A stretch of 64,000 nucleotides of DNA from Streptomyces subrutilus (GCF_008704535.1 NZ_CP023701.1:1116001-1180000); one strand, 5' to 3'; shown: positions 6,411 through 36,759, counted from the stretch's first letter. Program-made: numbers and translations. The notes: generated from the sequence alone by a model not told the origin.

Positions 6411-7190
6411 TCAGCCGCCCTGGTAGCGGGTGGCGAGCCGGGGGCTCTGCCCCCCGAAGGCCGCGAGGTCGGCGCGGAAGACGGCGTCGAGCAGGGCGGC
6501 GTCCTCCACGCCCGGGGCGGTGACGACCTCGCCGAGTTCCAGACCGCGCAGGCCCGCGGTGACCACGTCGTCTGCGGACATGCGGGGGACGGCGCTCAGG
6601 TCGAGGCCCTGGCGCTCGTGGAACTCGGTGGCGACGACGCCGGGGCACACCACCTGCACCGCGACGCCGGTGCCTTCGAGTTCCGCGGCGAGCGCCTGGG
6701 TCATGGCGACGAGGTGGGCGAGCGTGCCCGCGTAGACGGCGCGGCGGGGCATCACCGAGCTCGGGGCCGGGCCGCTGAAGGCGATCATGCCGGCGACGTT
6801 GACGAGGGCGCCCGCACCGCGGTCCCGCATGCCCGCCACGGCGGCCCGGGCGAGCAGGGTGGGGGCGACGACCTTCACGTGGACCAGTTCGCGCGCCTTG
6901 TCGGCCGGGAGTTCGGCCAGGGGCATGTAGTGCGCGACGCCCGCGTTGTTGACCAGCATGTTCAGCGGCTCCGCCGCGCAGACCGCGGCGACGGCGTCGA
7001 CACCGTCGTCGGTGGACAGGTCGGCGGCCAGGACGCGGACCCCGACCTCGGGGTGGTCCGCGGCGAACGCCTCCAGCCGGTCCTCGCGGCGGCCGACGAC
7101 GATCAGGTCGTGGCCGGTGCCGGCCAGCCGCTCGGCGTAGGCCCTGCCGATGCCGGAGGTGGCTCCGGTGACGAGTGCGAGCTTGCTCAT
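6411..7190 (-). CDS. short-chain dehydrogenase/reductase with atypical active site
   Basis: 259 residues. Classical SDR cofactor motif T-G-x3-G-I-G at residues about 8-15, NNAG at about 88-91 and P-G motif (CPGVV). The catalytic Tyr is present in VYAGTLAHL, but the position of the obligatory Lys in Y-x3-K is Leu (Y-A-G-T-L). This suggests altered chemistry or a non-catalytic or binding role, unless another Lys substitutes. ATG start at 7188-7190 is preceded by GAAGAAGGGCC. Flanked by a DeoR gene and a glutaminase gene without overlap, it looks monocistronic. Confidence 0.85.
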   Translation of the reverse strand: MSKLALVTGATSGIGRAYAERLAGTGHDLIVVGRREDRLEAFAADHPEVGVRVLAADLSTDDGVDAVAAVCAAEPLNMLVNNAGVAHYMPLAELPADKARELVHVKVVAPTLLARAAVAGMRDRGAGALVNVAGMIAFSGPAPSSVMPRRAVYAGTLAHLVAMTQALAAELEGTGVAVQVVCPGVVATEFHERQGLDLSAVPRMSADDVVTAGLRGLELGEVVTAPGVEDAALLDAVFRADLAAFGGQSPRLATRYQGG

Positions 7191-27461: not shown

Positions 27462-28874
27462 TCAGACGCCCCAGCGCAGGGCGATGGTGTCGCCCACGTT
27501 GACGACCTTCTCGCGCAGCGCGCCCGCGAAGGAGGAGCCGTCGACGCTCACCTTCCAGGTGGTGGAACCGCTGTTGGCCTTGCCGTTGACGTTGGTGAGG
27601 GCGCCGCTGCCCGAGGCGGGGGTCACGCTCGTGACACAGCCCGAGGGAGTGGCGGCGCTCGTGGCGGCGGCCAGGACGTCGCCGAGGGTGGTGGTGGCGG
27701 CGGTCGGGGTGAAGGCCACCGAGCACACCTTCAGGTTGCCCGCGCCGTCGTCGACGCTCAGCGCCAGCTTGGTGGCGGTGCCGGCGGTGAAGGCGGACTG
27801 GGCGACCCACTGCGGGGCTCCGGGGGTGACCGGGACGGGCGGGGCCGTGGTGAAGCCGCCGCCCGCGACGGCGCGCAGCGCGTCGATGGAGGAGTAGGCG
27901 GAGGGGCTGGTGTCGGACGGCTGGTACTTGAAGCCGCCCGCCGGGTTGTACTGGTTGGCGATCAGGAAGTCGATCGGGGTCTTGCCGCCGGCGGTGAGGA
28001 AGTCGCCGGTCTGCGGGTTGAATCCGCAGGCGTTGAGTCCGGCCACGCCCCAGCCGTTGGAGCTGGTGTTGATCCCGTAGAGGGAGTTGAAGGCGCCGCT
28101 GCCGGAGACGAGCGTGCTCTTGAGGAAGTTCTTGGCCTGGACGACGTCGGTGTCGGTGTTGGGCACTCCGGAGACGCACAGGGCCGCCATCGCGGCGCCG
28201 GTCATGTCGACGTCGCTCGCGGAGTTCAGGACGGTGGGGTTGCCCTCGCCCTTCTGGTAGGTCCAGCCGCCGTCCACGTGCTGGTTGGCGCGGATGCGGG
28301 TGACCATCGCGTCGGTGAGCGCCTGGGGGATGCGCTGGTTGCCGCCCTGGGTCTTGGCCCCTCTCAGCGAAAGGGCCGCGAAGACCGTGCCGTTGAAGTT
28401 CGCGGACGGCCCGAAGTAGCCCGCCTCGGCCGTCTGCCAGAAGGAGTAGACGTGCGCGACGAGGTTCCGCGACGCCGAGACGCGGGCCGGGTCGATGCCC
28501 GCCGCGTACGCGTTCAGCGTGCCGCGCTCGTAGTCGGTGACGACGGGGGCGCCGGAGGGCCAGCCCGCCGTCGACAGCAGGTTGCGGTAGACGGCGCGGG
28601 CGTTCTTCGTGGTGTCGCCGCCGGGGTAGACGTCCACCACGGCGGTGCCGGCGGCGGCGAAGGTGCTGAACGCCCATTCGCCGGACAGGCCGGAGCCCGC
28701 GTACGAACCGTCGGCGGCCTGCAGCGACTTGAGGTAGGCGACGCCGTTCGTCTTGGACGTGGCGATCTGCGCGGGGCTGGAGGTCGCGGCGGCGGGCAGC
28801 ACGGTGAGGGCGAGGGCGCCGAGCGCCGCCGGTACGGCGAGCGCGAGGCGGCGGGAGGTGCGGGGACGGGACAT
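27462..28874 (-). CDS. secreted alpha-toroid + DUF4430-like protein (intrinsic factor/transcobalamin architecture)
   Basis: 470 residues; ATG at 28872-28874 follows CCAGGAG. Residues 1-32 are a Sec signal peptide (ends A-A-A-T-S). Residues about 40-310 contain prenyltransferase/squalene-cyclase-like helical repeats (VAYLKSLQAADGSY, NQHVDGGWTYQKG, ANQYNPAGGFKYQ). The C-terminal roughly 110 residues form a DUF4430-like beta domain (T-L-G-D-V-L-A-A-A, W-K-V-S-V-D-G, V-N-V-G-D-T-I-A-L-R-W). This helical-barrel plus beta-domain order is that of animal intrinsic factor and transcobalamin. No membrane or wall anchor is seen, so it should be released. A cobalamin riboswitch in its leader supports B12 binding. 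Confidence 0.82.
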   Translation of the reverse strand: MSRPRTSRRLALAVPAALGALALTVLPAAATSSPAQIATSKTNGVAYLKSLQAADGSYAGSGLSGEWAFSTFAAAGTAVVDVYPGGDTTKNARAVYRNLLSTAGWPSGAPVVTDYERGTLNAYAAGIDPARVSASRNLVAHVYSFWQTAEAGYFGPSANFNGTVFAALSLRGAKTQGGNQRIPQALTDAMVTRIRANQHVDGGWTYQKGEGNPTVLNSASDVDMTGAAMAALCVSGVPNTDTDVVQAKNFLKSTLVSGSGAFNSLYGINTSSNGWGVAGLNACGFNPQTGDFLTAGGKTPIDFLIANQYNPAGGFKYQPSDTSPSAYSSIDALRAVAGGGFTTAPPVPVTPGAPQWVAQSAFTAGTATKLALSVDDGAGNLKVCSVAFTPTAATTTLGDVLAAATSAATPSGCVTSVTPASGSGALTNVNGKANSGSTTWKVSVDGSSFAGALREKVVNVGDTIALRWGV

Positions 28875-29460: not shown

Positions 29461-32202
29461 GTGGGGACCGAACAGCAGGCGAAACGGACGTCGGGGACGA
29501 GACGGCGGTTCCTCTCGTTCGTCACCGCCTCCCTCCTGACGCTCGGTGCGGGCGCGGCCTTCCTCACGGTGCCCTCCGCGAGCGCCGATCCGATCGGACA
29601 GTGCACCGCCACGAACGGCGCCGTCGTCGCCGTGGACTTCGGCCCCTTCGGCGGGGCGGTCGAGCGGGGCTGCGACACCACCCCCACCACCGGTTACGAG
29701 TTGCTGCACGCCGCCGGTTTCACCACCGAGGGCACGGTCCACGACGGTGACGCGTTCGTCTGCCGCATCGGCAAGGGCTCCGGTGCGCGCCACCCCGCTC
29801 CGGACAAGGAGGACTGCGTCCTCACCCCGCAGGCCACCGCGTACTGGTCGTACTGGATCGCCTCGCCCGGCCAGCGCAAGTGGACCTACAGCCCGCTGGG
29901 CGCCATGGAGCGGACCCTGAAGCCCGGTGACGTGGACGCCTGGGTCTTCGGCGGCACCGACATCGGCGGCACCAAGGGCAGGCCCGGCTTCACCCCCGAC
30001 GACGTCCGGGGCCTGTCCACGCCCGATCCGACCGTCCCGACCGCGCCGCCCGGGGTGCCCGCGGGCTCGGTCGACGTCCCCGCCGCCACCCGCTGGATCG
30101 CCGGGAGCCTCACCGACGGCGAGCGCGTCGTCGACGAGGGCGCCACCACCGCGAACCACTTCCTCACCACGGAGGCCGTGTTCGCCCTGGCCGCGACCGA
30201 CCGCACGAGCCCGGTCGCGAGGAAGGCCGCCGCGTTCCTCGCCGCGCCCGCGCAGACCGACGCGTACGCGTACCCCTCCGGCAAGGACGGCATACCCGAC
30301 GCCACCGCCGCCGCCCGCCTGGCGCTCGTCGCCGAGGCCACCGGCCTCGACCCGCGCGCGTTCGGCGGCCACGACCTCCTCGGCGACCTCGTGACGTACG
30401 TCTGCCCGCGCGACATCGGCGACGGCGAGACCGTCGACGGCTGCTACACCAAGGGCGACTTCCGCACCGCCGGTTACGCCGACGGCCAGGCCATGGCCGT
30501 CATCGCCCTGGTCAACGGCGGAGTGGCGCCGCCCGCCCACGCCGTGAGCCGGCTGACCGCCCTCCAGTGCGAGGACGGCGGCTTCACCAGCATCCTGATC
30601 CGGTCCGGCGGAGCCTGCCAGAGCGAGGCCTCCGCCACCGCCCTGACCACCCTGGCCCTGGCCCGGGCAGGCGGCCACGAGGACGCCGTCCAGCGGGCCC
30701 GCGCCCACCTCAAGAGGTCCCAGCTGCCCACCGGGGCCTGGCCCGCCGCCGCCTACGAGACGACGGGCAACCCGGCCGCCACCGCCTGGGCCGCCCAGGC
30801 ACTGCGCGCCCTCGGCGACGAGACGTTCGCCGACGCCGGCGCCTCCTGGCTCTCCAGGCACCAGCTCCCCGCGGGCGGTTTCGGCTTCGCCGAGGACGAC
30901 ACCGACACGCGCCTGTTCCCCACCGCCACGGCCGCCATCGCCGGCGCCGGCAGCGATCTGGTCGCGCTCGCCACCAAGCGGACCGACCCGCCCACCACAC
31001 CGCCGACCACCCCGCCCGTCACCCCTCCGGCCGGTGACGGCCCGGACCTGAAGAAGGGCGTGGCCTACCTCACCCACCCCGGCCGGCTGGTCCAGGGCCG
31101 CTACTACGAGGCCGGTGCGGGCACCGGCCACGCCGACTACGGCATGACCATCGACGGCGCCTACTCCCTCGCCGCCACCGGCATGGACAACGCCACCCTG
31201 CGCAACATCGTCGACTTCCTCGACAAGGGCGGCAAGGACGGCAAGGGCCGGGGCATCCAGGACTGGACGCTCGTCGGCACCGCGTACGCCGGCGGCGGCT
31301 CCATCGGCAAGGCGGCCCTCCTCGCGGAGGCCGTCGGCCGCGACCCCCGCGACTTCGGGGGCCGGGACCTGATCGCCGCTCTCGCCAAGAGCACCTGCGC
31401 CGCCAAGACCTCGACCCGCCAGGAGTGCGCGGGCAAGGGCAACTACACGTACGCGACCTCCGTGTTCTCCCAGTCCCTCGGCGTCATCGCGCAGATCCGG
31501 GCGGGCGAGACGGCTGCCGCGGCCGAACCGGTCGGCTACCTCAAGAGCCTCCAGACGCCCTCGGGCGCATGGGTCAGCCTGATCGGCGAACCGAGCGCCG
31601 CCGAGGTCGACTCCACCGCCATGGCCGCCATGGCCGTCGACCTGCTGCCCGATGCCGCCTCCCAGGCAGCCGTGGACAAGGCCCTCGCCTGGCTGGCGGC
31701 CCAGCAGAAGGAGGACGGCGGCTTCCCCGGCGCCTCCGGGAACTCCGTCAACTCCGCCGCCCTCGCGATCCAGGGGCTCTCCCTGGACGCCCCCAGGTAC
31801 GGAGCCCGGATCGCCAGGGCCCGCGCGTTCCTGGCGAGCCAGCAGAACGCCGACGGCGGCTTCACCATCGCCAAGGGCGGCCAGCCCGGATCCGACGTCC
31901 GCGCCTCCGCGCAGGCCGTGGGCGGTGCCACCGGCGTCTCCTTCGGCACCCTCGCCCGCAGCCTGGACGGCACCACCCCGCAGCCCCTCCCCGGCAGCCG
32001 GGTCACCGCGTCCGCGCCCGTCATCGTGACCCCCGGCGAAGCGGCGGGCAGCGCGGGCGGCGGCACGGGCGGCGGGGACCTCGCGTCCACCGGCGTCCAG
32101 GTCACCGGACTCGCCGCGATGGCCGCGGCGTTGGTGCTCACCGGCTGGGCCGTGACGCGGGCGGCCCGGCGCCGCCGCGGGACCACCGGGGGCCGGGCAT
32201 GA
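29461..32202 (+). CDS. cell-wall-anchored (LAXTG) protein with DUF4430-like and two alpha-toroid domains, putative B12 receptor
   Basis: 913 residues; GTG start follows GACGAGGACC. Order: signal peptide (T-R-R-R-F-L...PSASA), DUF4430-like beta domain (about 40-185; ELLHAAG, FVCRIG, YWSYW, LKPGDVDAWVFGG), first helical toroid (about 205-500; LQCEDGGFTS, LPTGAWPAAAYE), a Thr/Pro linker (about 505-525), second toroid (about 530-850; QQKEDGGFPGASG, QQNADGGFTI), a Gly-rich spacer, L-A-S-T-G at 874-878, a transmembrane helix and an Arg tail. LAXTG is the class E sortase motif of Streptomyces. First gene of a B12-riboswitch operon ending in an ECF importer; it probably captures cobalamin at the cell wall. 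Confidence 0.85.
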   Translation: MGTEQQAKRTSGTRRRFLSFVTASLLTLGAGAAFLTVPSASADPIGQCTATNGAVVAVDFGPFGGAVERGCDTTPTTGYELLHAAGFTTEGTVHDGDAFVCRIGKGSGARHPAPDKEDCVLTPQATAYWSYWIASPGQRKWTYSPLGAMERTLKPGDVDAWVFGGTDIGGTKGRPGFTPDDVRGLSTPDPTVPTAPPGVPAGSVDVPAATRWIAGSLTDGERVVDEGATTANHFLTTEAVFALAATDRTSPVARKAAAFLAAPAQTDAYAYPSGKDGIPDATAAARLALVAEATGLDPRAFGGHDLLGDLVTYVCPRDIGDGETVDGCYTKGDFRTAGYADGQAMAVIALVNGGVAPPAHAVSRLTALQCEDGGFTSILIRSGGACQSEASATALTTLALARAGGHEDAVQRARAHLKRSQLPTGAWPAAAYETTGNPAATAWAAQALRALGDETFADAGASWLSRHQLPAGGFGFAEDDTDTRLFPTATAAIAGAGSDLVALATKRTDPPTTPPTTPPVTPPAGDGPDLKKGVAYLTHPGRLVQGRYYEAGAGTGHADYGMTIDGAYSLAATGMDNATLRNIVDFLDKGGKDGKGRGIQDWTLVGTAYAGGGSIGKAALLAEAVGRDPRDFGGRDLIAALAKSTCAAKTSTRQECAGKGNYTYATSVFSQSLGVIAQIRAGETAAAAEPVGYLKSLQTPSGAWVSLIGEPSAAEVDSTAMAAMAVDLLPDAASQAAVDKALAWLAAQQKEDGGFPGASGNSVNSAALAIQGLSLDAPRYGARIARARAFLASQQNADGGFTIAKGGQPGSDVRASAQAVGGATGVSFGTLARSLDGTTPQPLPGSRVTASAPVIVTPGEAAGSAGGGTGGGDLASTGVQVTGLAAMAAALVLTGWAVTRAARRRRGTTGGRA

Positions 32203-33122
32203 GCCGCCACCGCCTCCTGCGGGCCGTCGCCCGTACGGCCGCCGCACTCGGGCTGGCGGTGGCGGCGTTCGCCGCCACCGCGGCCCCCGCCGGCGCCGAG
32301 CCGCTGCCCATGGGCCAGTGCACCACCTCCTCCGGCGTGGTCCTCGCCGTGGACTTCAGCCGCTGGGGCGGCCCCGTCTACCGCTCCTGCGGGACGACGC
32401 CCACCACCGGCCACGAGCTCCTCAACCAGGGCGGCTGGGCCACCACCGGCACCGGGCACGACGGCCCCGCCTTCATCTGCCGCATCGGCTACAGCGGTCA
32501 CCAGGGCGGCAGGCAGTTCCCGACCCCGCAACAGGACGACTGCGTACGCACCCCGCCCGCCTCGGCCTACTGGTCGTACTGGCACGCGGGCCCCGGCCAG
32601 AGCACCTGGGAGTACAGCCAGCTCGGCGCCATGCTCTACCAGCCGAAGCCCGGCAGCGTCGACCTGTGGATCTTCGGCGGCACCGACATCGAGGGCACCG
32701 AGGGCAAGCCCACCGTCACCCCCGACCAGCTGCGCGCCAAGAACACCAGGCCGACCGGCGGACCCGCACCCCAGGACACCCGTACGGCGGCGCCCCTGCC
32801 GCCGAACGTGAACACCGGCCCCAGGCCCCAGGATCCGCCGCCGTCCGCCGCGCCCCCTCCCGCGACGACCCCGGCGCCCGTCCCCGCGGCCTCGGCGAGC
32901 CCCTCCGCCAGCGCCTCCCCGACCCCGTCCGCGACGCCCCCGTCGAACGCCCCGGCCGCGGCCGCGCCCCCGCCCGGCCCCCAGGTCGTCGAAGCGGCCC
33001 CCGCCGCCGACGCGGAGCACGACACGGGCTCGTACCTGCCCGCCGTCGCCACCGGAGCGCTGGTGCTGCTGATCGGCGCCGGCGCCGTGTTCGCGGCCAG
33101 GCGCCGCCGTCGTACGGAGTAG
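32199..33122 (+). CDS. membrane-anchored DUF4430-like domain protein of the B12 operon
   Basis: 307 residues; ATGA overlap with the preceding gene. Signal peptide (about 1-36, ends A-G-A-E-P), then a roughly 150-residue domain clearly paralogous to the N-terminal domain of the upstream protein (shared landmarks M/I-G-Q-C-T, A-V-D-F, C-x-T-T-P-T-T-G, F-I/V-C-R-I-G, D-D/E-C-V, YWSYW, G-G-T-D-I). A Pro/Ala/Ser linker of about 90 residues spans the wall, and a C-terminal transmembrane helix with an Arg-rich stop follows. There is no toroid and no clear LAXTG. It may pass B12 from the wall receptor to the ECF importer (inference). Confidence 0.82.
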   Translation: MSRHRLLRAVARTAAALGLAVAAFAATAAPAGAEPLPMGQCTTSSGVVLAVDFSRWGGPVYRSCGTTPTTGHELLNQGGWATTGTGHDGPAFICRIGYSGHQGGRQFPTPQQDDCVRTPPASAYWSYWHAGPGQSTWEYSQLGAMLYQPKPGSVDLWIFGGTDIEGTEGKPTVTPDQLRAKNTRPTGGPAPQDTRTAAPLPPNVNTGPRPQDPPPSAAPPPATTPAPVPAASASPSASASPTPSATPPSNAPAAAAPPPGPQVVEAAPAADAEHDTGSYLPAVATGALVLLIGAGAVFAARRRRRTE

Positions 33123-33125
33123 CGC

Positions 33126-34313
33126 GTGCCACCCACCACGACGAGGGCAGCGGCCGCGCCGCCCGCGTCCGGCCCCGCGCCGGACGCGGGCGGCCGCCGT
33201 CTGCCCCGCACCCTGCACCCGGTCGCCTGGTGGATCTGGGCCCTGGCCCTCGCCACCGCCGTCAGCCGCACCAACAACCCGCTGCTGCTCTCCCTCGTCC
33301 TGGCCGTCCTCGGCTACGTGATCACCGTGCGGCGCACCGAGGCCCCCTGGGCGCGCGGCTTCAAGTACTACCTGTACCTGGCGCTGACCGTCGTCGCGAT
33401 CCGGGTGCTGTTCCGCGCGGTCTTCGCCACCGGGATCACCCCCCGCGACCACTTCCTCTTCGCCCTCCCCCACATCCCCACCCCCGACTGGTACGCCGGC
33501 ATCCGGCTCGGCGGCCCGGTCTCGCTGGAGGCGCTGCTCTCCGCCGCCACCGACGGGCTGCGCCTGGCCTGCATGCTCTGCTGCATCGGCGCGGCCAACA
33601 CCCTCGCCAACCCCAAGCGCGCCCTGCGGATCCTGCCCGGCGCCCTGTACGAACTCGGCGTGGCCGTCACCGTCTCCCTCAGCGTCGCCCCGCAGCTCGT
33701 CCAGAGCGTCCAGCGCGTGCACCGGGCCAAGCGGCTGCGGGCCGGCCCCGCCAAGGGGCTGCGCGCCCTGCGCGGCATCATCGTCCCCGTCCTCGAAGAC
33801 GCCCTGGAACGCTCGCTGCGGCTGGCCGCCGCCATGGACTCGCGCGGCTACGGCCGGGCCGGCACCGCCACCCGGCGCTCGCGGCGGGCCACCGGCGCCC
33901 TCATGCTGCTCGGCATGTGCGGCCTGTGCGCCGGCGCCTACGGCCTGCTCGACGCCACCGCCCCGAAGCTGCTGGGTCTGCCCGCCATGGGCGCGGGCGC
34001 CCTGCTGTGCTTCGCCGGGCTGCGCCTCGGCGGACACCGCATCACCCGGACCACCTACCGGCCCGACCCCTGGCGCTTCGCCGAATGGGCCGTCGCCGGC
34101 TGCGGTGTCCTCTCGGCCGTCCTCCTCTTCGCGAACGTCGGATTCAACGCCGCCGAACTCAACCCCTCGATCCATCCGCTCAGTTGGCCCACCCTGCCGC
34201 TCGTCCCCGCCGCCGCGATCCTGCTCGCCGGAGCCGCCGGCTTCCTGGCGCCGCCCCCGGCCGCCCCCGCCCGTCCGGCCATCCCCGCCCAGCGCACCGA
34301 GGAACCCACGTGA
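33126..34313 (+). CDS. ECF transporter T component (EcfT/CbiQ family)
   Basis: 395 residues, GTG start 3 bp after the preceding stop. Multi-span membrane protein with the long cytoplasmic coupling helices and the CbiQ-type A-M-D-S-R-G-Y-G motif that contacts the ATPases. It is longer than typical EcfT (about 260) because of three extra C-terminal membrane segments and a Pro-rich tail. It provides the scaffold linking the S component to the fused ATPase. Stop overlaps the ATPase GTG (GTGA). Confidence 0.92.
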   Translation: MPPTTTRAAAAPPASGPAPDAGGRRLPRTLHPVAWWIWALALATAVSRTNNPLLLSLVLAVLGYVITVRRTEAPWARGFKYYLYLALTVVAIRVLFRAVFATGITPRDHFLFALPHIPTPDWYAGIRLGGPVSLEALLSAATDGLRLACMLCCIGAANTLANPKRALRILPGALYELGVAVTVSLSVAPQLVQSVQRVHRAKRLRAGPAKGLRALRGIIVPVLEDALERSLRLAAAMDSRGYGRAGTATRRSRRATGALMLLGMCGLCAGAYGLLDATAPKLLGLPAMGAGALLCFAGLRLGGHRITRTTYRPDPWRFAEWAVAGCGVLSAVLLFANVGFNAAELNPSIHPLSWPTLPLVPAAAILLAGAAGFLAPPPAAPARPAIPAQRTEEPT

Positions 34314-35962
34314 TCACCTTCGACCAGGTCACCGTCCGCTACGAGGACACGGCCGAGCCCGTGCTGCGCGGGGTGGACCTGACCGTGGAGGAGGGCGAGC
34401 TCTGCCTCGTCGTCGGCCACACGGGCGTCGGCAAGTCCACCCTGCTGGGCGCCGTGAACGGGCTCGTCCCGCACTTCACCGGCGGCACCCTGTACGGCCG
34501 GGTCGTCGTCGACGGCCGCGACACCGCCGACCATCCGCCGCGCGAACTCGCCGACGTGGTGGGAGTCGTGGGGCAGGACCCGCTCGACGGGTTCGTCACC
34601 GATACCGTCGAGGAGGAACTCGCCTACTCCATGGAGCAGTTGGCGGTGCCCCCGGCCACCATGCGCAAGCGCGTCGAGGAGACCCTCGACCTGCTCGGCC
34701 TCGCCGACCTGCGCCACCGGGCCCTGCACGAGCTCTCCGGCGGCCAGCAGCAGCGCGTGGCCATCGGCTCGGTCCTCACCGCCCATCCGAGGGTGCTGGT
34801 GCTGGACGAGCCCACCTCCGCCCTGGACCCCACGGCGGCCGAAGAGGTCCTGGCGGCCGTCACCCGCCTCGTCCACGACCTCGGGGTCACGGTGCTGCTG
34901 GCCGAACACCGCCTGGAGCGGGTCGTCCAGTACGCCGACCGCGTCATCCACCTCCCCGGCGACGGCCGCGTCGTGTCCGGGACCCCCGCCGAGGTCTTCC
35001 GCAGCTCGTCCATCGCACCGCCGATCGTGGAACTGGGCCGCGCCGTCGGCTGGTCACCGCTCCCGCTCTCGATCCGCGACGCCCGGCGCGCGGCCGCGCC
35101 GCTGCGCGCCGCACTGTCCGCCGCCGTCCCCCCGCCGGTACGGCCCGTCCCCGGCGGGGACCGGCCGGAGCTGCTCACGGCGCGCGGCGTCACCGTGGCC
35201 TACCAGGGCGTACCGGCCGTGCGCGAGGTCGACCTCACCCTGCACGGCGGCGAGGTGACCGCGCTCATGGGGCGCAACGGCTCCGGCAAGTCGTCCCTGC
35301 TCTGGGCCCTCCAGGGCTCCGGCCCCCGCAAGGCCGGCACCGTGGCCGTCAGCTCCGACGGCCCGAAGTCGAAGGACCCCCGGAAGCTGTCCGCGGCGCA
35401 GGCCCGGCAGCTGGTCGGCCTGGTCCCGCAGACCCCCACCGACCTGCTCTACCTGGAATCCGTCGCGCAGGAACTCGACCAGGCGGACACCGAATCCGGC
35501 GTCGCGGCCGACGGCGTCCGGGCCCGCACCATCCTCGACCGCCTGGCACCCGGCATCCCGGACACCACCCACCCCCGCGACCTGTCCGAGGGCCAGAAGC
35601 TCGCCCTGGTCCTGGCCGTGCAGCTGACGGCCGCACCCCGGGTGCTGCTGCTGGACGAGCCCACCCGAGGTCTGGACTACCGCGCCAAGAGCGAACTGGT
35701 CCGCATCGTCGACGGCCTCGCCGCGGAGGGCCGCGCCGTGGTGATCTCCACCCACGACGTCGAGTTCGTGGCCCGGGCCGCCGACCGCGTGGTGGTGATG
35801 GCCGAGGGCGACGTGGTCGCGGACGGCCCCACCACCGAGGTCATCGTCGCCTCCCCCGTCTTCGCCCCCCAGACGGCCAAGATCCTCTCGCCCCTCCCCT
35901 ACCTCACGGTCGCCCAGGTGGCCGCGACCCTTCCCGCCGACGAGACGGACCCGGACTCATGA
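34310..35962 (+). CDS. ECF transporter fused ATPase (EcfA1-EcfA2)
   Basis: 550 residues with two ABC domains. Domain 1: Walker A G-H-T-G-V-G-K-S-T (about 38-46), L-S-G-G-Q-Q-Q-R signature, VLVLDEPTSALD. Domain 2 (from about 285): Walker A G-R-N-G-S-G-K-S-S, divergent signature L-S-E-G-Q-K-L-A, VLLLDEPTRGLD and H-loop S-T-H-D-V-E-F. Coupled by overlaps to both neighbours. Fused ATPases are frequent in actinobacterial ECF systems. Confidence 0.96.
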   Translation: MITFDQVTVRYEDTAEPVLRGVDLTVEEGELCLVVGHTGVGKSTLLGAVNGLVPHFTGGTLYGRVVVDGRDTADHPPRELADVVGVVGQDPLDGFVTDTVEEELAYSMEQLAVPPATMRKRVEETLDLLGLADLRHRALHELSGGQQQRVAIGSVLTAHPRVLVLDEPTSALDPTAAEEVLAAVTRLVHDLGVTVLLAEHRLERVVQYADRVIHLPGDGRVVSGTPAEVFRSSSIAPPIVELGRAVGWSPLPLSIRDARRAAAPLRAALSAAVPPPVRPVPGGDRPELLTARGVTVAYQGVPAVREVDLTLHGGEVTALMGRNGSGKSSLLWALQGSGPRKAGTVAVSSDGPKSKDPRKLSAAQARQLVGLVPQTPTDLLYLESVAQELDQADTESGVAADGVRARTILDRLAPGIPDTTHPRDLSEGQKLALVLAVQLTAAPRVLLLDEPTRGLDYRAKSELVRIVDGLAAEGRAVVISTHDVEFVARAADRVVVMAEGDVVADGPTTEVIVASPVFAPQTAKILSPLPYLTVAQVAATLPADETDPDS

Positions 35963-36759
35963 CCGCACGCGCCGCCGCCATCCGGATCAACGCACGGGCC
36001 GGCGTCGTCATCTCCATGGCCGCCTTCCTCGGCGTCGTCGCGTTCTTCTGGCCGTTCCTGGTCGCCCCCGGGAAGTTCGGCTCGAACTACGCCCCGCCGC
36101 TGATCTTCGGCGTGCTGCTCGTCGTCGTGCTCTGCGTGGTGGTCTCCGAGATCGCCGAGGGCGGCATCGACTCCAAGGCCCTGGCCATGCTCGGCGTCCT
36201 GTCGGCCGTCAACGCGGCCGTCCGCCCGCTGGGCGCGGGCACCGCGGGCATCGAGACGGTCTTCTTCATCCTGGTCCTCGCCGGGCGGGTCTACGGGCCC
36301 GGTTTCGGCTTCACCCTCGGCTGCACCTCGCTCTTCGCCTCCGCCCTCATCACGGGCGGGGTCGGGCCCTGGATGCCGTACCAGATGTTCGGGTGCGCCT
36401 TCGTCGGCATGCTGGCCGGATTCCTGCCGAAGGCCGCCGGCCGCCGCGAGGTGGCCCTGCTCGCCGTCTACGGGTCGCTCTCCGGCTACCTCTTCGGCTT
36501 TCTCCTCAACCTGTCCTTCTGGCCCTTCTCGCTGGACCCGAACAGTTCCATCGCCTATCTGCCGGGGCTGCCGTTCACCGAGCAGTTCCACCGCTATCTC
36601 GCCTTCGACCTGACCACCTCCCTCGGCTGGGACACCGGCCGCGCCGTCACCAACTTCGTCTGCATCTGCCTGGCCGGACCGGCCGTCCTCACGGTGTTCC
36701 GGCGCGCCGCCCGCAAGGCCCGCTTCCAGGCCCCGATCCGTTTCGCACCCCGCCCGTGA
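35959..36759 (+). CDS. ECF transporter S component, putative cobalamin-specific
   Basis: 266 residues with six or more transmembrane helices and the EcfS-like central G-I-E-T-V-F-F-I-L-V-L-A-G-R-V-Y-G-P-G-F-G-F region with small-residue packing. ATG overlaps the ATPase stop. Substrate specificity is inferred from the B12 riboswitch at the head of the operon; CbrT of Lactobacillus is a characterised B12-specific ECF S component. Last gene of the operon; a hairpin at 36918 follows. Confidence 0.85.
   Translation: MTARAAAIRINARAGVVISMAAFLGVVAFFWPFLVAPGKFGSNYAPPLIFGVLLVVVLCVVVSEIAEGGIDSKALAMLGVLSAVNAAVRPLGAGTAGIETVFFILVLAGRVYGPGFGFTLGCTSLFASALITGGVGPWMPYQMFGCAFVGMLAGFLPKAAGRREVALLAVYGSLSGYLFGFLLNLSFWPFSLDPNSSIAYLPGLPFTEQFHRYLAFDLTTSLGWDTGRAVTNFVCICLAGPAVLTVFRRAARKARFQAPIRFAPRP

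Follow-up and report, generated by a model that had tools for sequence, protein, structure and literature searches.

The analyzed stretch, a 64,000-nucleotide window of the 7.6-Mb chromosome of Streptomyces subrutilus (GCF_008704535.1 NZ_CP023701.1:1116001-1180000), carries a locus in which three exported proteins, here called P1, P2 and P3, are encoded beside an energy-coupling factor (ECF) transporter and behind two cobalamin riboswitches. P3 ends as a released protein, P1 as a sortase substrate for the cell wall, and P2 as a membrane-tethered protein. This graded anchoring is real, is conserved among relatives, and goes beyond chance. The best explanation, and one that we consider probable, is a tiered corrinoid capture system that is induced by vitamin B12 scarcity and feeds the ECF importer. 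A strict serial hand-off of B12 from protein to protein is a less likely role than capture, and we give it somewhat less than an even chance.

Anchoring states of the three exported proteins

P1 (913 amino acids, GTG start; 29461..32202, plus strand) was recognized as an exported wall protein of the sortase type from its sequence, its relatives and a structural model. The C-terminal sorting signal (32080..32199, plus strand) consists of LASTG at residues 874-878 (nucleotides 32080-32094), a hydrophobic helix and RRRR, and is conserved in relatives. LAXTG is the recognition motif of class E sortases (PMC5148588), and the genome encodes four class E sortases at or above the NF033747 cut-off as well as three of class F. 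A second motif, LAATG at residue 570 of P1, is internal and is not a sorting signal. P2 (307 amino acids; 32199..33122, plus strand), identified from sequence and relatives, is an exported beta-domain protein in which a 94-residue linker (residues 183-276; 32745..33026, plus strand), 63% Pro/Ala/Ser, leads to a membrane helix at residues ~281-301 followed by the Arg cluster RRRRR (33039..33101, plus strand); LAXTG is absent from it. P3 (470 amino acids; 27462..28874, minus strand) has a signal peptide and no anchor according to sequence and model; its C-terminus is the beta strand GDTIALRWGV, and there is no helix beyond the signal peptide.

Conservation was examined in 80 loci from Streptomyces, Kitasatospora, Actinacidiphila, Dactylosporangium, Catellatospora, Micromonospora, Hamadaea and uncultured actinobacteria. 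A sorting motif was present in 69 of 74 P1 proteins (LASTG in 43, LAATG in 13, and LPVTG or MPVTG in Micromonosporaceae), while the chance expectation is 2.4% per random tail of equal composition. None of the 77 P2 orthologues carried L[AP]xTG, and a C-terminal extension was found in none of the 61 P3 orthologues. A preliminary description of this DNA had assigned no anchor to the 27462 product, a class E sorting signal of LASTG, helix and Arg tail to the 29461 product, and a linker of about 90 Pro/Ala/Ser residues plus a membrane helix to the 32199 product, had placed an ECF transporter at the end of the series, and had linked the locus to B12. All of these assignments were borne out.

Riboswitches, gene order and co-occurrence

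The B12 link comes from two matches to the cobalamin riboswitch family RF00174 that lie back to back, one on each strand, between the P3 and P1 genes. The riboswitch ahead of P3 (29009..29083, minus strand; 33.4 bits, E 1.8e-6) is above the gathering score, and the one ahead of P1 (29216..29326, plus strand; 31.2 bits, E 7.5e-6) is slightly below the gathering score of 31.5. Both were found at the same site in all 14 Streptomyces relatives that were searched, and in Dactylosporangium and Catellatospora divergent riboswitches between the released and the anchored sides score above the cut-off.

Downstream of the second riboswitch, five plus-strand genes (29461-36759) that overlap or lie only a few bases apart form the operon P1-P2-EcfT-ATPase-S component, and the P3 gene (27462-28874) is divergent from it. 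The start codon of P2 overlaps the stop codon of P1 (ATGA), and the two genes stay together in nearly all loci. The order P3 / P1-P2-T-A-S is kept over Streptomyces, Kitasatospora and Micromonosporaceae, and conservation of the layout across several genera indicates that it is under selection.

P3, P1 and P2 co-occur in the identical 15 of 150 Streptomyces genomes, where the genus search for P2 used the folded domain alone as the query. This result bears on the proposal that P3 serves as a public or exclusionary trap for B12, directed against competitors, and stands outside the producer's own uptake. P3 is released, has its own riboswitch and belongs to an organism with corrin biosynthesis genes, all of which would suit a trap; but P3 is present in none of the 135 genomes that lack window-type P1/P2, which points to recovery through P1/P2 and makes the trap unlikely.

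Fold of P3 and toroids of P1

The model of P3 (mean predicted local distance difference test score of 90) consists of an alpha/alpha toroid (~27867-28766, minus strand) followed by a C-terminal beta domain (~27468-27773, minus strand). Its best matches in the Protein Data Bank are human, rat and bovine transcobalamin, followed by intrinsic factor, and haptocorrin is also significant. The transcobalamin and intrinsic factor matches have 12-15% identity and a root-mean-square deviation of ~19 Å, a value large enough to indicate that the two P3 domains fit singly and that their mutual orientation differs. The P3 beta domain has no Pfam match, and profile comparison with hhalign suggests a resemblance to DUF4430, the Pfam family name for the transcobalamin C-terminal-like domain (E 2.4e-5, probability 75). 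DUF4430 itself has no match in this genome. On the modelled fold and the riboswitch, a B12 role for P3 is well supported. In two Streptomyces relatives (L033:574-1239, plus strand, and L034:12353-13015, minus strand), an extra cobalamin riboswitch stands ahead of a secreted stand-alone DUF4430 protein beyond P3.

P1 contains two toroids, both modelled with high confidence: toroid 1 (residues 163-452; 30076..30945, plus strand), which matches Pfam toroid families, and toroid 2 (residues 487-779; 31048..31926, plus strand). P1 scores 136.7 against the NCBIfam model SCO2321, below the curated cut-off of 300, and is longer. In terms of structure, a Foldseek search with P1 returned toroids in general, cyclases among them. 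These cyclase matches and the toroid family matches would fit a role of the toroid proteins as enzymes, similar to terpene cyclases or prenyltransferases, and not as binders. We regard such a role as very improbable: the proteins are exported and riboswitch-controlled, and the best matches of P3 are B12 carriers. A terpene cyclase role was rejected because P1, P2 and P3 have no DxDD motif. As separate observations on the P1 gene, it is split in one relative (G012; L032 and L084), with its start ~650 kb from the remaining operon and on the opposite strand, which resembles a break by inversion, and another relative (G005; L040, ~6800-7150) has a frameshift just ahead of LASTG that is either real or a sequencing error.

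Beta domains of P1 and P2

P1 and P2 share a beta domain with four cysteines, which lies at the N-terminus of P1 (29590..29985, plus strand; low model confidence) and is ~60% identical to its counterpart in P2 (32298..32714, plus strand). In the alignment of P2 sequences, the four cysteines are invariant and accompany an AYWSYW motif. The domain has no Pfam match, and the order of its motifs is suggestive, with AYW by one strand and G and W by the last. P2 scores 22.5 against the NCBIfam model SCO2322, below the curated cut-off of 85, and has the unpermuted order. Given the riboswitch, the gene neighbors and the toroids, P1 and P2 may share the B12 role.

The linker of P2 varies among relatives (median length 111, range 40-239), and between it and the helix lies the conserved juxtamembrane motif VVEAAPAADAEHDTGS (VVEAAPAADAEHDxGS; 32985..33032, plus strand). 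A VxDAxP-type motif of this kind is kept in 69 of 77 orthologues although the linker length varies, which hints at a docking function, and the motif is a possible docking site. P2 was also considered as a degenerate sortase substrate on account of EHDTG ahead of the helix. This was rejected, as the T is not conserved: the residue ahead of GS may be S, A, T, V, P or R.

The ECF transporter

The remaining genes of the operon encode EcfT of the CbiQ family (PF02361; 33126..34313, plus strand), a fused double ATPase with two ABC_tran stretches (34310..35962, plus strand), and an S component (PF12822; 35959..36759, plus strand). The ECF set is thus complete, with the S component at the cut-off of its family (30.5 bits against 30.7). 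Sequence comparison of the S component with solved chains gave no match, and its candidacy as a close relative of CbrT was rejected for that reason. The riboswitch makes cobalamin the likely substrate. Other cobalamin riboswitches of the genome precede CbiM, MetE, CobN, ribonucleotide reductase, CobD/CobQ and a BtuF-FecCD system.

Related clusters

Three cluster types were distinguished: the window type, a divergent type and a core type. The divergent type, found in about ten other genomes, encodes a beta protein, T, A, S and a toroid protein; most of its toroid proteins end in LA[SDR]TG, and its beta proteins have a plain helix at the C-terminus. One divergent-type cluster (L080:8582-11527, minus strand) encodes an additional toroid protein that is large and carries a plain membrane helix.

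The core type (SCO2321-SCO2325), whose beta protein was found in 77 of 81 Streptomyces, is also present in this genome at 5.21-5.22 Mb (L202:6299-12647, minus strand), behind a cobalamin riboswitch and with an ECF transporter. No released protein was found in the core-type cluster. The SCO2322-type domain of the core cluster (L202:10364-11173, minus strand; ~5.216 Mb) looks like a circularly permuted version of the P1/P2 beta domain. Rotating the profile lengthened the alignment from 47 to 106 columns and raised its score from 57.5 to 63.7, and column shuffles gave at most 20. The gain in score is moderate, and the conserved order of cysteines and motifs is the stronger argument.

Dactylosporangium, Catellatospora, several uncultured actinobacteria and one further genome encode two released proteins, one toroid and one beta, next to an anchored set, which consists of an anchored toroid protein, a membrane beta protein and, where the contig extends far enough, the ECF transporter. 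The released proteins of Catellatospora are also behind a riboswitch. This persistence of a released set beside an anchored set and an ECF transporter, even where the released proteins differ in make-up, speaks most strongly for a shared pathway. In one genome (L188:8185-12561, minus strand), a single strand carries genes for a released toroid protein, a released beta protein and an LPTTG-anchored toroid protein, and a fourth gene with a beta domain, next to the ECF genes.

The divergent clusters, the core cluster and the released pairs of Micromonosporaceae all divide the toroid and beta halves between different proteins. Together with the fusion of both kinds of half in P3, this separation would also suit a split transcobalamin in which nothing is relayed, the P1 toroid in the wall and the P2 beta domain in the membrane forming one B12 clamp between wall and membrane, and P3 being the soluble form. 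Window P1, however, already has a beta domain of its own, and the kinship of the P1/P2 beta domain with that of transcobalamin is unproven by profile comparison, so we hold such a clamp to be possible but rather doubtful.

Proposed mechanism and points against it

At low B12, as expected from this known class of riboswitch, the two divergent riboswitches would permit expression. P3, by its modelled fold, would be released as a soluble binder similar to intrinsic factor. P1 would be secreted and coupled to the wall by a class E sortase, in keeping with its motif and the enzymes encoded in the genome. P2, by its sequence, is tethered in the membrane, and its long flexible linker leaves the beta domain on the outer side. 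In the most likely mode of action, toroid and beta halves would sandwich B12 as they do in transcobalamin, and exchange between the beta domains of P1 and P2 would bring the vitamin from the wall to the membrane, P3 being an optional collector further out. The ECF transporter, assigned to its family by sequence, would import the corrinoid. Because toroid and beta halves are often on separate proteins, we favor a form of the mechanism in which the halves jointly hold B12 and swap partners inward. As a whole, this relay, in which interchangeable halves of a split transcobalamin are released, wall-attached or membrane-tethered and B12 swaps partners until it reaches the ECF transporter, is put forward tentatively. 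Serial hand-off is the natural reading of the grading by analogy with the precedents for haem and B12 discussed below.

Several observations weigh against the tiered scheme. Of the 74 loci with sufficient upstream sequence, 12 lack P3, and five uncultured P1 proteins have a plain membrane anchor and no wall anchoring. In the core type, the SCO2321-type toroid protein ends in a plain membrane helix, with LAXTG in 0 of 29, and the surface proteins (toroid and beta) are membrane-tethered versions only. From the loci without P3, the five membrane-anchored P1 proteins and the wall-free core type, it follows that there is no obligatory chain from released to wall to membrane protein. The hand-off chain suggested in the preliminary description is partly supported: the three anchoring states held, and serial passage of B12 from protein to protein is a hypothesis. 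In addition, model quality was low for the P1 copy of the P1/P2 beta domain, and hhalign of this domain against DUF4430 (probability 0.8%) and against the P3 beta domain was not significant. Identification of the domain as either of these was rejected on that basis, and an iterated hidden Markov model search likewise missed DUF4430. Finally, the organism has corrin biosynthesis genes, including CbiC, and its BtuF-FecCD system has its own riboswitch, so the P1-P2-P3-ECF cluster need not be essential. Judging from its genes, the organism is probably a B12 producer with at least three riboswitch-linked systems for corrinoid uptake. The cluster would then serve for salvage, and an effect of its loss may be visible only in a sensitised strain.

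The same data are compatible with parallel capture, in which each of P1, P2 and P3 gathers corrinoids by itself and increases their concentration locally, no transfer occurs between the proteins, anchoring only sets the site of work, and the ECF S component takes up free B12. The optional nature of P3 agrees with such a scheme, as does the membrane-only, LAXTG-free core cluster, which is near-universal; solitary CbrT from Lactobacillus also binds B12 at the nanomolar level without a helper protein (PMC5997447). On the other hand, P2 carries a single beta domain and lacks a toroid, so that under the transcobalamin model it would bind poorly by itself, and the P1 and P2 genes overlap and are nearly always kept together. 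Parallel capture is a possibility that we rate no higher than a tentative one. Both it and a clamp bridging the P1 toroid and the P2 beta domain fit the data as well as a serial hand-off does.

Comparison with known systems

Bacterial surface proteins that combine SLBB domains with toroids, and cobalamin ECF transporters, are already known (PMC1796856, PMC5997447). P3 is similar to the animal carriers transcobalamin, intrinsic factor and haptocorrin in its toroid-to-beta order and in giving them as its best fold matches, but it differs in its low identity and modelled domain orientation, and the P1 and P2 modules are recombined and anchored. Secreted or wall-anchored SLBB-toroid proteins of bacteria were predicted to bind B12 by Burroughs et al. 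2007 (PMC1796856), and DUF4430 proteins adjoin the window-type cluster in relatives. Unlike these proteins, the P1/P2 beta domain is missed by the DUF4430 model, the 2007 work does not mention Streptomyces, and the consulted portion of it does not describe graded anchoring with an ECF operon. ECF-CbrT of Lactobacillus delbrueckii (PMC5997447) likewise has EcfT, ATPases and an S component, with B12 the likely substrate here. The S component of the window has no sequence match among solved chains, and CbrT is described, in the sections seen, without surface partners.

Measured haem transfer through released, wall and membrane tiers to a transporter is known for Isd/NEAT and Shr-Shp-HtsA (PMC2515342, PMC3359286). 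These systems share with the present locus a tiered tetrapyrrole hand-off to a transporter, but their folds and ligand are unrelated, and here transfer is only predicted. In Bacteroides, the surface lipoproteins BtuG/BtuH include a B12 binder that passes the vitamin on, BtuG to BtuB (PMC10404256); these too serve a transporter from the surface, but in the outer membrane, with unrelated folds and in a TonB-dependent manner. The SCO2321-SCO2325 core cluster has a cobalamin riboswitch, a toroid protein, a beta protein and an ECF transporter in common with the window, but differs in its membrane-anchored toroid, its apparently permuted beta domain and its lack of a detected released protein. A literature search, outside of which subscription papers largely lay, found no published account of the tiered arrangement or of the function of SCO2321.

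Passage of a cofactor the size of B12 across the thick wall of a Gram-positive mycelium has been little studied, and a B12 hand-off through the cell wall is a testable, unproven idea. If a relay with defined tiers is true, wall crossing could be tested with purified domains and the removal of a few genes. Such a relay would extend to B12 the wall-relay principle known for haem, as an actinobacterial counterpart of Isd, and would assign a function to the SCO2321/SCO2322-type proteins, which are widespread. The bacterial relatives that carry the halves of the animal B12 carriers on separate proteins may then represent a possible ancestral form of the fused carriers.

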